Source: Thermothelomyces thermophilus ATCC 42464
Lineage: Eukaryota > Ascomycota > Sordariomycetes > Sordariales > Chaetomiaceae
DNA length: 64,000 bases
Assembly (NCBI RefSeq): GCF_000226095.1
Contig: NC_016475.1
Location: forward strand, 124,001 to 188,000
Reading direction: 5' to 3'
The position numbers and the translations under genes were made by a program. Within the stretch, counting starts at the first letter, position 1, and each line of letters starts with the position of its first letter. Under the pieces are notes generated by a model. The model saw nothing but the letters and a program-made list of their open reading frames with translations. It was not told the origin of the DNA and did not search any database. Of the stretch, positions 49,352-53,806 are shown one piece after another.

Positions 49352-50913
49352 ATGGACAGCAGGAGCTTTTCCTCACGCTTGCGCGAGCTTGTCAAGGTGA
49401 GTGTAATTATACGCTGTCGAAACAACAACCCAACCCCCCCCCCCCAAAAAAAAAAAAATATTCCCGACGGCCTTTCTTGTTCTTTTTTGTCCTTTTTTTT
49501 TTCCTGTTGCAAAAGAAATATAAATATATCTGACCTCATGCCCCTCCGCAGTTCCTCAGCACCGTCAAAGGCGACCTCGCCAACGTGACCGGACCCCCAT
49601 CGCTCCTGGCGCCGCTCTCGGTTGTCGAAGTAGGCCGCTTCTGGGCCGAGCGGCCATCCGTCCTCGCCGCGCCCGCTCGGGAGCCCAAGCCCGAGAAGCG
49701 GGCGCTGCTGGTGCTCCGCTGGTTCCTCATTGCCCTGCGCGGCCAGCTCTACGTCGGCGTCGACCTTAATAACAACCACAACCATGACCACAACCACAAC
49801 CACAACCAGAACAACAACAACAACGGCAAGAAGACTCCGACGAGCAGCACGTCCATCCGTAAGCCGCTCAATGCCTTCCTGGGCGAGCTCTTCCTTGCGA
49901 GCTGGACCGACGAGACCAAGGGGACGACCACGACGACGACGCGGCTGGTGGCCGAGCAGGTGTCGCACCACCCGCCCATCACGGCCATGCACGTATCGTG
50001 CGACGACGACAGCGAGGGGGGCGGCGAGGGGCTGGTGCGCGCGGACGGGTACGCGCGGGTCGAGATGGTGTTTGGCGGGGTCAGCGCGGGCCTGCAGATC
50101 CGGCAGGTCGGGCACGCGACGGTGCGGGTCGACCGGTACGGCGAGGACTACCTGATCCCGCTGCCCGACGTGCGCGTGCGCGGCTTCCTGGCCGGCTGCC
50201 TGTACCCCGAGATCGCGGGCGTCTACCACATCGTCGGCAGCAACGGCTTCCGCGTCGAGATGAAGTTCTGGGGCGAGGGCTTCATCCGCGGCAAGAGGAA
50301 CTCGTTCGAGGCGAGGGTGTACCGCGACGAGGAGGAGGAGGAAGAGGAGGAGGAGGAAGAAGAAGGGGAGGATGAGGACGAGAGCCAGAACAAGGAGAAC
50401 AACAACAACAAGAAGAAGAACAAGGAAAAGAAGAGGATCCGGGTGGTCTACTACGAGGTGGCCGGGTGCTGGAGCGAGGGGTGGACGGTCAAGGACGGGC
50501 GGACGGGCGAGCTGGTCGAGGTGTACCGGGTGGACGGGCCCGAGAACGGGCCGGCGCGGATGGAGATGGAGCCGGTCGAGAAGCAGGACCCGTGGGAGTC
50601 GCGGCGGGCCTGGGCGGGCGTGCTGCGCGGGCTCGCGGCGGGCGACATGAGGTCGGTGGTGGCCGAGAAGACCAAGATCGAGCAGGCGCAGCGGCAGATG
50701 CGCGCGACCGAGGCGGCCAGGGGCCTCGTTTGGGAACCGCTCTTCTTCAACTCATACCCGTCCGACGACCACCCCGTCTTCCACCGCCTGTCACAGGGTC
50801 TGGGCTGGCAGCTGCATGCCGACAAGACCAAGGGTGTCTGGAAGTTGGACGATGGCCGGCTCAAGAGGATACAGCGTCCATTCCGGGGCGATATCACCCC
50901 GTTCGGATACTGA
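49352..50913 (+). CDS. Oxysterol-binding protein (ORP, short Kes1/Osh4 type)
   Basis: Exons 49352-49396 and 49552-50913; 468 aa. The short first exon gives MDSRSFSSRLRELVK and splicing adds FLSTVKGDLANVTGPPSLLA, the lid region of Kes1-type proteins. The signature EQVSHHPP lies at about residues 150-157. It is followed by the beta-barrel words YLIPLPDVRVRGFLAGCLYP and KFWGEGFIRGKRN, and ends in the PI4P-proximal helices (WEPLFFNSY, WKLDDGRLKRIQRPFRG). No PH domain or ankyrin repeats are present. It should exchange sterol and PI4P between membranes in the cytosol. Two simple-sequence inserts are unusual: an Asn/His-rich run (about residues 86-106) and a Glu-rich then Asn/Lys-rich run in the second half. 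Both fall between conserved strands, so probably in loops. Confidence 0.92.
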
Positions 50914-50933
50914 TCATGCCTCCGCTCGTCCAT

Positions 50934-50958
50934 AGGGTCCAACCGTACTGCCGTCACG
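50934..50958. repeat. Left arm of perfect 25-bp inverted repeat
   Basis: This arm begins AGGGTCCAACCGTACTG and is the exact reverse complement of 51894-51918. It starts 21 bases past the oxysterol-binding protein stop. No matching short direct repeats flank the two arms, so a standard transposon insertion is not shown. Confidence 0.95.
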
Positions 50959-51059
50959 ATAGAGAAGAAGGGTGGGGAAAAGGAGGACGTGGAGGAAGTA
51001 GCGGCGGAAGAAGAGAAGAAGAAGGGGGACGGCGGCGGCGGCAGCCGCGGCGGCAGGGA

Positions 51060-51560
51060 TGGGATGATGATCTTCGCGCGGACGAAGCAGGAGGAGCGGG
51101 ACCTCTGGGTGGCGCGCAAGGAAGGCGCTCTTCGCCATGACGAGCATGCGTCCCGACGGGCACGTGCTGTGGTCGACCGACGTGGCCGTGCCCGTGTCGC
51201 GGCTGGCCGACACGGTCGACTGGTCCAAGGCCGAGTGCAGCCGGCTGGGCCTCTTCGCCAGCGTCGTCGGCCACGTCGGCGACGGCAACTTCCACGTCGC
51301 CATGATCTACGACCCGCGCGACCCGGCCCAGGCCGCCGCCGTGGCCCGCTGCGTCCGCCGCATGACGGACCGGGCGCTCGAGATGGACGGCACCGTGAGC
51401 GGGGAGCACGCCATCGGCATCGGCAAGAAGGCCTGTCCCCGGGACGAGCTCGGTGACGAGACAATCGGGCTCATGAGGGCCCTGAAGCGGGCGCTCGACC
51501 CTAAAATGGATCATGAACCCGGGCAAGGTGTTTGATGAGACAGACAAGGTGACCGGGAAA
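51060..51560 (+). pseudogene. D-lactate dehydrogenase (FAD-linked oxidase) C-terminal relic
   Basis: The last part of the FAD-linked oxidase C-terminal domain is recognisable: RDLWVARKE, then MRPDGHVLWSTDVAVPVSRL, LFASVVGHVGDGNFHVAM and MDGTVSGEHAIGIGKK. These match mitochondrial D-lactate:cytochrome c oxidoreductases. Intact proteins are about 560-600 aa; only about 160 aa are left. One extra base near 51124 and another near 51504 shift the frame; beyond the second, the original end (NPGKVFDE-like) continues in the new frame. The metal/flavin-site words HVGDGNFH and SGEHAIG are intact. No FAD-binding half precedes it, so it cannot work alone. Confidence 0.85.
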
Positions 51561-51624
51561 GCATTCACAAATGAAGGGCCGCCAACTTGTGTCTGGTCTC
51601 CCAGGGACCCTGGCTCTCGGTATT

Positions 51625-51960
51625 ATGCAGAAAGCCTAGGCACGACGCTAGCCATTGCCGCAACAGTTTAGACGTTGTATAATAACAGTACCACCAGCAC
51701 CACCAACAACAATAACACCAACAAGCGGATCGTCGCGCCAGGCAGGCGGCCGTTCTTCTGGTGGGTCTAGTACCCGGGGTGAAAATGGGAAAACGGCAGC
51801 AATCGCCGGTGCCATGGGTGTCCTCGGGTTTGGGACCGGGGTGTTGTTGACCAAGTATTACCCCAGCAGCCATGATGATGATGATGATGGGGCCGTGACG
51901 GCAGTACGGTTGGACCCTCCGACAGAAGCCACCGCCGGACCGCGACGGCGCTACGCCAGC
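51625..51960 (+). pseudogene. Probable D-lactate dehydrogenase N-terminal relic (presequence and membrane anchor)
   Basis: From ATG 51625 the frame reads a mitochondrial-presequence-like segment (PLPQQFRRCIITVP), a Ser/Gly linker, a membrane-anchor-like stretch (KTAAIAGAMGVLGFGTGVLL) and RRRYASQA. This resembles the leader of fungal D-lactate dehydrogenases, whose mature part starts with a similar RYAS-type word. Two TAG codons near the start could be C-to-T changes of CAG. The FAD-binding domain that should follow is absent; sequence runs into the 3' flank of the transporter gene. The assignment rests on layout and on the neighbouring tail piece, so it is tentative. Confidence 0.4.
51894..51918. 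repeat. Right arm of perfect 25-bp inverted repeat
   Basis: This is the exact reverse complement of 50934-50958. In the plus frame it encodes VTAVRLDP within the head relic of the dehydrogenase. The left arm is therefore likely an inverted copy of this bit, or both derive from the same break-repair event. Confidence 0.95.
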
Positions 51961-52014
51961 CAAGCCGTGAGAGAGAGCAAACAACAACAACAAAAAAAAA
52001 AAAAAAGAAGAAGA

Positions 52015-53806
52015 TTAACGTCGGTCGGCGTGGGCGGCGACCGACTCCTGCTTGGCCTTGACCTCCTCGACGCGGAGCTCGAGGTCGTTGAGGGCCCAGT
52101 CGGAGCGGTTCATGGTGGGGACGAAGAGGGGCGCGTCGGTGAAGAGGCGGTTCATCTCCTCGAGGGGCCGCTTGGCGGTCTCGGGCAGGAAGGCCCAGAA
52201 GAAGAGGGCGTTTGTGAAGTTGCAGACGACGAAGAGGAGGTAGAAGCGGTACCCGACCGTCTTCATGGCCGGCCCCGTCACCTGGCCGATCATGGTGTTG
52301 AGGGCGAAGGAGGTCATGGTGGCGATGGAGACGCCCTTGGAGCGCGTCTTGGTGTCGAAGATCTCGGCCGGGATGATCCACGAGAGGGGCCCGCAGGTGG
52401 CGCTGAAGCTGAAGTTGTAGACCCAGGTGACGACGATGAAGCCCCAGGCGGCCGCCTTGTTGCTGCTGGTGCCGGGGGGGTAGCGGGCCAGCATGACGGT
52501 GGCGATGATGAAGGTGACGCAGTTGCCCAGGTTGCCGCCGATCAGGGTCCAGCGGCGGCCGAGCCGGTCGATAAGGAGGATGCAGAGCGCCTGGGCGACG
52601 AGGGCGATGATGGACGAGATGGCCTGGTACTTGAGCGTGTCGTCGCCCTCGATGCCCATGAGGCCGTAGATGGTGACCGAGTAGTACTGGATGGCCGAGA
52701 CGCCCGTCATCTGGACGGACCCCTGGATGGCGCAGGCCAGGAACAGGCGCCGGAAGCAGGACCGGTCCCGGAACAGCTCCGCGTACGACTTGGCCTCGTT
52801 CTCGCGCACGAACTCGACCGACTCGCGGATCTGCTGGTACTCGGCCTGCACCCACGCGTCGTCCACGTCGCCGTGCGAGTGCAGCTGCGCCAGCGTCCTG
52901 AGCCCCTCCTCCGACCTGCCGTGGTCGATGAGCCACCGGGGCGACTCGGGGAACAGGAGGATCAGCGCGGCCAGGAAGACGGCGGGGATCACCTGGATCC
53001 CCAGCGAGGTCCGCCACTGCCCGTCGTTGGTGGGGGCGAAGCCGACGTACGTGCCTGGAGAGGACGAAGAAAACTCAGGGGTTAGCCTATTTTTTTCCTT
53101 TCTCTTTCTTTCTTTTTTCTTTTTTCTTTTTTCTTTTTGTCGATCGGGGAGACAGCAGACTTACCGTACGAGATCCAGGCGGCCGCCAGAGCGCCGATGC
53201 CGAGCATAAACTGCTGCAGAGCCGTGATTCGGCCGCGGATGCTGGGGTGGGCGAGCTCGGCCTGGTACATGGGAACGATCATGCAGAGCACGCCGACGCC
53301 GAGTCCGGCGATGGAGCGGCCCGCATAGAGGTACGAGAGCGCCTGGGCGCCCGTCTGCAGGGCGCCGCCGAGGCAGAAGACGAGGGCGCCGCAGAGGATG
53401 GTCCAGCGCCGGCCGAGCTTGTCGCCCATGGGGCCGGCCGCCATGGCACCAAAGAAGGCGCCGCCCGTGAAGACGGACACGACCGCTGCTCTAATTAGAG
53501 AGAAGCAAAAGTGTCAACATGTCTGTCACTTAATATGGACCGAGACATATGGGAAAGGGAGGAAGAAGAATGAAAAAAAGTCAAGAAAAACGGCGGTGAG
53601 AGGAAGGAGAGGAAGAAGATAATAAACTAGTAATTAGGTAATTAATTAATTACTCACTCCTCATTGTCACTGGGACTGAACCGTGACTTGAAGGACTGCG
53701 AGGCAATCACCTGGGCAATGACACCCAGGTCGTAGCCGTACAGCAGAGACCCGAGCGAGGCGAAGACGCCCACCAGGAACTGATACCACTTGGGAGAGAG
53801 GACCAT
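52015..53806 (-). CDS. MFS sugar transporter (hexose/pentose family)
   Basis: Minus-strand exons 53658-53806, 53165-53490 and 52015-53054; 504 aa. Twelve membrane helices are implied. Family marks are LVGVFASLGSLLYGYDLGVI in helix 1, GDKLGRRWT after helix 2, YLYAGRSIAGLGVG with VPMYQAELAHPSIRG, PESPRWLIDHGR, GSVQMTGVSAIQYYSVTIYG in helix 7, DRLGRRWT, and PETAKRPLEEM at the end of helix 12. These define the sugar porter family (TC 2.A.1.1). It is divergent from the GH51 arabinofuranosidase gene with 1.28 kb between start codons, so L-arabinose or another pentose is the likely substrate. The second intron is very CT-rich. Confidence 0.92.

Follow-up and report, generated by a model that had tools for sequence, protein, structure and literature searches.

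A probably rearranged D-lactate dehydrogenase pseudogene in Thermothelomyces thermophilus with a perfect 25-bp inverted repeat, a possible scar of fold-back copying during break repair

On contig 4 of Thermothelomyces thermophilus, the DNA between an oxysterol-binding-protein gene and a convergent sugar-transporter gene is best read as a D-lactate dehydrogenase pseudogene that carries a templated inverted insertion. Scars of this kind are known, and this one is well preserved; the pseudogene is probably rearranged, with its tail lying ahead of its head. The locus looks like the product of error-prone break repair and not of a mobile element. The origin that we favour, with confidence about evenly balanced, is that fold-back copying of 25 nt during break repair, followed by end-joining, made the left arm of the repeat at the relic of a third D-lactate dehydrogenase paralogue. 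Should related genomes bear this reading out, the locus would stand as a clean natural example, in a filamentous fungus, of a decaying gene marked by template switching or by fold-back copying over a long range. The papers listed in our literature search deal with such processes mainly in experimental systems and in tumours. Failing such support, the relic is an ordinary pseudogene.

Results

The locus and its neighbouring genes

The window, by which we mean the whole 64,000-nt stretch of DNA analysed, corresponds to bases 124001–188000 of contig 4, with genome searches covering 38,744,216 bases in 7 contigs. In window coordinates, the features of the locus are:

49537–50913, + strand: main coding part of the oxysterol-binding-protein gene, left neighbour (PF01237, 120.7 bits; open frame to 50913)
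50934–50958, − strand: left arm, a 25-nt inverted copy of 51894–51918, read as junction filler DNA
50959–51536, + strand: tail, the D-lactate dehydrogenase C-terminal part, in three frames (secure from ~51073; 50959–51072 plausible only)
51537–51624, no strand: spacer of 88 nt from the tail homology to the putative head, by frame reading
51625–51966, + strand: putative head, with a presequence-like stretch, two early in-frame stops, a hydrophobic stretch, RRYASQA and GTGAG
51894–51918, + strand: right arm, within the putative head in a frame giving VTAVRLDP, taken as the template from which the left arm was copied
52015–53806, − strand: sugar-transporter gene, right neighbour, convergent toward the relic (PF00083, 217.7 bits, 52018–53157)

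The oxysterol-binding-protein gene ends in a stop codon at 50911–50913, and a further first exon may lie to the left of 49537. The sugar-transporter gene has its stop codon at 52015–52017 and, as judged by eye, its start at ~53806, the span being given without an intron model. Between the putative head and this stop codon, 15 consecutive A residues occupy 51992–52006, within a longer stretch of AAC/A/GAA simple sequence. Repeat-induced point mutation was considered and rejected, with 50914–52011 bearing no signature of it (TA/AT ratio of 0.55 and substrate index of 1.09, compared with 0.71 and 1.12 for the window).

The tail is a remnant of a D-lactate dehydrogenase

An earlier note on this DNA had proposed that it holds a C-terminal piece of D-lactate dehydrogenase, and both domain and structure searches bear this out, with 51071–51532 matching the FAD-linked oxidase C-terminal part in a Pfam scan (PF02913, 132.5 bits), and mitochondrial D-lactate dehydrogenase returned as the top PDB match (94 bits). 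The FAD-oxidase C-terminal domain that the tail carries is of the D-lactate dehydrogenase type. Whilst it resembles the mitochondrial FAD-linked enzyme in this domain, matching 140 residues of the PDB entry, the relic differs from that enzyme in being frame-broken, in lacking the middle of the protein, and in the probable permutation of its parts.

The tail changes frame twice, near 51125 and again near 51505, and the motif WIMNPGKVFD, which follows the second change, ends the homology. Upstream, secure homology extends in a different frame to FARTKQEERDLWVARKE, from about 51073, which aligns with FAKDAREQKLLWSARKE of a paralogue. The score of the whole upstream piece against the two paralogues is reached by 0 of 1000 shuffles each in local alignment, and by 0 and 3 of 1000 in global alignment. 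Taken alone, the acidic, low-complexity part before ERDLW (50959–51072) gives scores that are not significant, being reached by 95 and 518 of 1000 shuffles; it is plausible on alignment that the tail homology extends all the way to the left arm. Past the homology, the tail's final frame has no stop for 44 codons (51537–51671) and runs into the putative head before closing with TAG at 51669–51671.

Of the six matches that a genome search with the tail returns, one is the tail's own locus, two lie on contig 1 and three are weak (E values of 0.0042 to 0.53). The contig-1 relatives share 55% identity over 105 residues and 51% over 67 residues with it, which argues that the tail is the remnant of a separate, third and decaying D-lactate dehydrogenase paralogue. 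The third-position G+C of the tail is 0.95, and its decay therefore looks recent. Among 101 pattern-matched stretches from prokaryote genome contigs, where fungal genes are not expected, none encodes a relative of the tail.

The contig-1 paralogues and the missing middle

In the two contig-1 genes (L012 and L013), head, middle and tail are visible in exon frames that were read without built gene models. A genome query of 423 residues from one paralogue matches the relic locus only with its C-terminal end (residues 346–423), and the FAD-binding middle was not found there. Elsewhere, the same query matches, at E ≤0.01, the paralogues, a D-2-hydroxyglutarate-dehydrogenase-like gene on contig 3 (31% identity), and four places of 26–30% identity. 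At this threshold no orphan middle of paralogue-level identity is apparent genome-wide, with the four 26–30% places characterised by identity alone. The tail has no introns, and each paralogue has some in the tail region; L012 and L013 have one intron near the same C-terminal place, offset by ~two codons, with their tail-region introns otherwise differing.

A putative head downstream of the tail

The stretch at 51625–51966 is likely to be the head of a D-lactate dehydrogenase, judging from its layout and its alignment to one paralogue. The frame opening with the ATG at 51625 is at first rich in Ser/Thr and has two early stops; a hydrophobic stretch of 19 residues follows, and then PRRRYASQA, which abuts GTGAG, a possible splice donor past which the reading frame itself continues open. 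This is the layout of the contig-1 paralogue at 7.28 Mb, in which PAPRYASMRGMEQ stands directly before GTACG, with a hydrophobic stretch followed by YAS ahead of GT in both cases and mean hydrophobicity values of 1.73 for the putative head and 1.55 for the paralogue. Against the head of the same paralogue the putative head scores 52, a value reached by 5 of 1000 shuffles, compared with 24–35 for the other five frames of 51625–51966.

Whilst these observations favour a head, it is possible, if rather unlikely, that 51625–51966 is nothing of the kind, and that the locus combines a truncated tail with adjoining intergenic DNA of unrelated origin and a 25-bp inverted repair filler, with no permutation at all. 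Of 4344 control frames cut as overlapping pieces from the rest of the window (starts at ~51300–52000 excluded), 10 also reach the score of 52, and the score of the putative head against the second paralogue's head is not significant, being reached by 178 of 1000 shuffles. Database searches likewise return little, with no Pfam match at E ≤1, a genome search at E ≤10 finding the putative head itself and neither paralogue head, and a PDB search at E ≤10 yielding 4 matches (best E value of 0.13), none of them a D-lactate dehydrogenase. Furthermore, the third-position G+C of the two halves of the putative head is 0.28 and 0.63, compared with 0.76 and 0.79 for the paralogue heads and 0.95 for the tail. 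However, the heads of the two paralogues are likewise not significantly alike, their score against each other being reached by 181 of 1000 shuffles. In viral contigs, where fungal genes are not expected, none of 68 pattern-matched stretches encodes a relative of the putative head.

The N-terminal presequence and anchor that the earlier note placed at 51625–51960 show modest similarity to one paralogue head, and no paralogue head came up in the genome search. The comparison with intact homologues of the same genome that it had proposed supports the tail, securely from about 51073, and modestly supports the head against one paralogue and not the other. Of the permuted relic that it described, the relic with an inverted copy stands, whereas the tail-before-head order is only probable and hangs on the identity of the head; were that identity wrong, the permutation would vanish and the inverted copy would remain.

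The 25-bp inverted repeat

The two arms, at 50934–50958 and 51894–51918, are 25 nt each and 100% complementary with 935 nt between them, confirming the perfect inverted repeat reported to bound 50934–51918. As also reported, the right arm sits in the frame that translates to VTAVRLDP, and the left arm is its inverted copy beside the oxysterol-binding-protein gene, starting 20 nt past the stop codon. A scan of the window allowing ≤3 mismatches finds these two arms only (100 shuffles average 0.00), and the 38.7-Mb genome holds no further copy, exact or with ≤3 mismatches; this was the check suggested for arms that serve genome-wide as the termini of an ordinary transposon. The outer 17 nt of the arm, searched genome-wide with ≤2 mismatches, occur at two extra places, each with 2 mismatches, compared with 5 for a reversed-pattern control.

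Perfect inverted pairs within 3 kb were surveyed in 26 sequences totalling 289,505 bases (<1% of the genome), comprising the window, five loci retrieved as candidate D-lactate dehydrogenase relatives, and 20 segments of contigs 1–4, each 10 kb long and placed at round coordinates, with pairs having <70% distinct triplets in their arms left out of the counts as simple sequence. The filtered survey contains 11 inverted pairs of at least 20 nt, 10 of which lie in one stretch (L032), the remaining one being the 50934/51918 pair; the longest next pair outside L032 is 18 nt, and a mirror-repeat control in the same survey yields nothing >14 nt. The arm pair is therefore far beyond chance.

Comparison by eye of the printed flanks reveals no direct repeat abutting the two arms, such as a target-site duplication, and no microhomology is visible in the flanks just outside the arms, though the arm itself could conceal it. 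The perfect identity of the arms suggests that the copying event is young; by our own estimate, in which the probability of no change at 50 sites is ~exp(−50d) for a neutral divergence d, an arm divergence of d >0.06 is unlikely.

Discussion

Because it separates the flank of the oxysterol-binding-protein gene from the tail, the left arm reads as filler DNA at a junction, with the gene order suggesting that it marks a breakpoint. The earlier note had offered three origins for the structure, a tandem duplication with deletion, a template-switch repair event, and an unknown capture element, of which copying repair best fits the inverted arm. In the origin that we favour, a third, decaying D-lactate dehydrogenase paralogue would have lain between two converging genes, having lost its middle and with its tail and head already arranged as they are now, whether as remnants of adjacent copies after tandem duplication and deletions or as a re-inserted circularised copy. 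A double-strand break would then have laid bare the left end of the tail, whose 3′-ended (bottom) strand may have folded back onto the head ~935 nt to the right and copied 25 nt, from 51894 to 51918, before the extended strand came free and was joined by its end to the DNA flanking the oxysterol-binding-protein gene.

This origin is supported by arms that are perfect, unique in the genome, and the sole filtered pair of at least 20 nt outside L032 in the 289,505 bases surveyed, and by our geometric reasoning the orientation of the left arm matches extension from the broken end of the tail by fold-back. Against it stand a 935-nt loop, compared with 41 nt in yeast, the lack of microhomology outside the arms, the modest similarity of the head, and the stretch abutting the left arm (50959–51072), which is not significant by itself. 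Additionally, the order of tail and head requires another, unseen event, with tandem-copy leftovers, a re-inserted circle, or a single serial template switch all possible sources.

Templated inverted insertions at double-strand breaks, most of them about 5–34 bp, are documented in yeast (PMC11724301). In that system the loop is 41 nt, the inverted microhomology used is imperfect and 10 bp long, and most fold-back inversions are <14 bp. The relic resembles these insertions in carrying, at a junction, a short inverted copy of sequence from close by, with its 25 bp falling inside the 5–34 bp range, and differs from them in its 935-nt spacing and in being a natural scar with no visible priming microhomology. 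Short-range template switching in evolution (PMC7954356) and the templated insertions of MMBIR (PMC8421209) are likewise described as local copying from another template; what differs here is that the pre-event state is inferred from a single genome. Among the matches listed in our literature search, no published title concerns the relic locus.

A less probable origin than fold-back copying, which we consider quite unlikely, is that one complex, MMBIR-like event of serial template switching remade a single intact gene, with deletion, swap and inverted copy arising together. Synthesis would have left the oxysterol-gene flank, switched strands to read 25 nt of the head, moved on to the tail, returned to the head, and ended on the transporter flank. 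Such a single event would account for all the junctions, which lie within about 1.1 kb, without a tandem intermediate, and the 25-nt copy demands DNA synthesis under any reading; however, four switches are required and the arm edges are without visible microhomology. That the locus is a small natural chromoanasynthesis-like scar of serial template switching in the fungal germ line, readable at base level, seems to us slightly less likely still.

The perfect 25-nt terminal arms enclosing gene pieces might suggest a terminal-inverted-repeat element with captured gene fragments at 50934–51918, but we reject this capture element as highly improbable on copy number and the absent target-site duplication, with no arm copy beyond these two genome-wide at ≤3 mismatches, outer 17 nt that are no commoner than the reversed control, and no Pfam transposase domain in the three interior frames scanned.

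A retrocopy, that is, a chimeric reverse-transcribed insertion accounting for the intron-free tail and the A-tract at 51992–52006, is similarly far-fetched, although LINEs are known to have made chimeric retrogenes in a fungus (PMC2104539), and AGAAGAAG occurs at both 50963–50970 and 52006–52013 (simple sequence, as judged by eye). Whilst each paralogue has introns in the region concerned, their positions are not exactly shared, so that the absence of introns from the tail tells little and the case is weak; the A-tract follows the head and not the tail, simple A/AAC runs occur elsewhere nearby, and the inverted arm is left unexplained. Inversion between the arms was rejected by reasoning from the gene order, with flipping of the inner 935 nt restoring no normal order.

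The survey of inverted pairs also brought out a separate structure at L032:6074–9768 (contig 3, about 2806074–2809768), where many perfect inverted matches of 17–44 nt are nested round a shared centre. This stretch resembles a large decayed palindrome, with arms that are AT-rich by eye, and perhaps, as a guess, represents two inverted copies of an element changed by repeat-induced point mutation.
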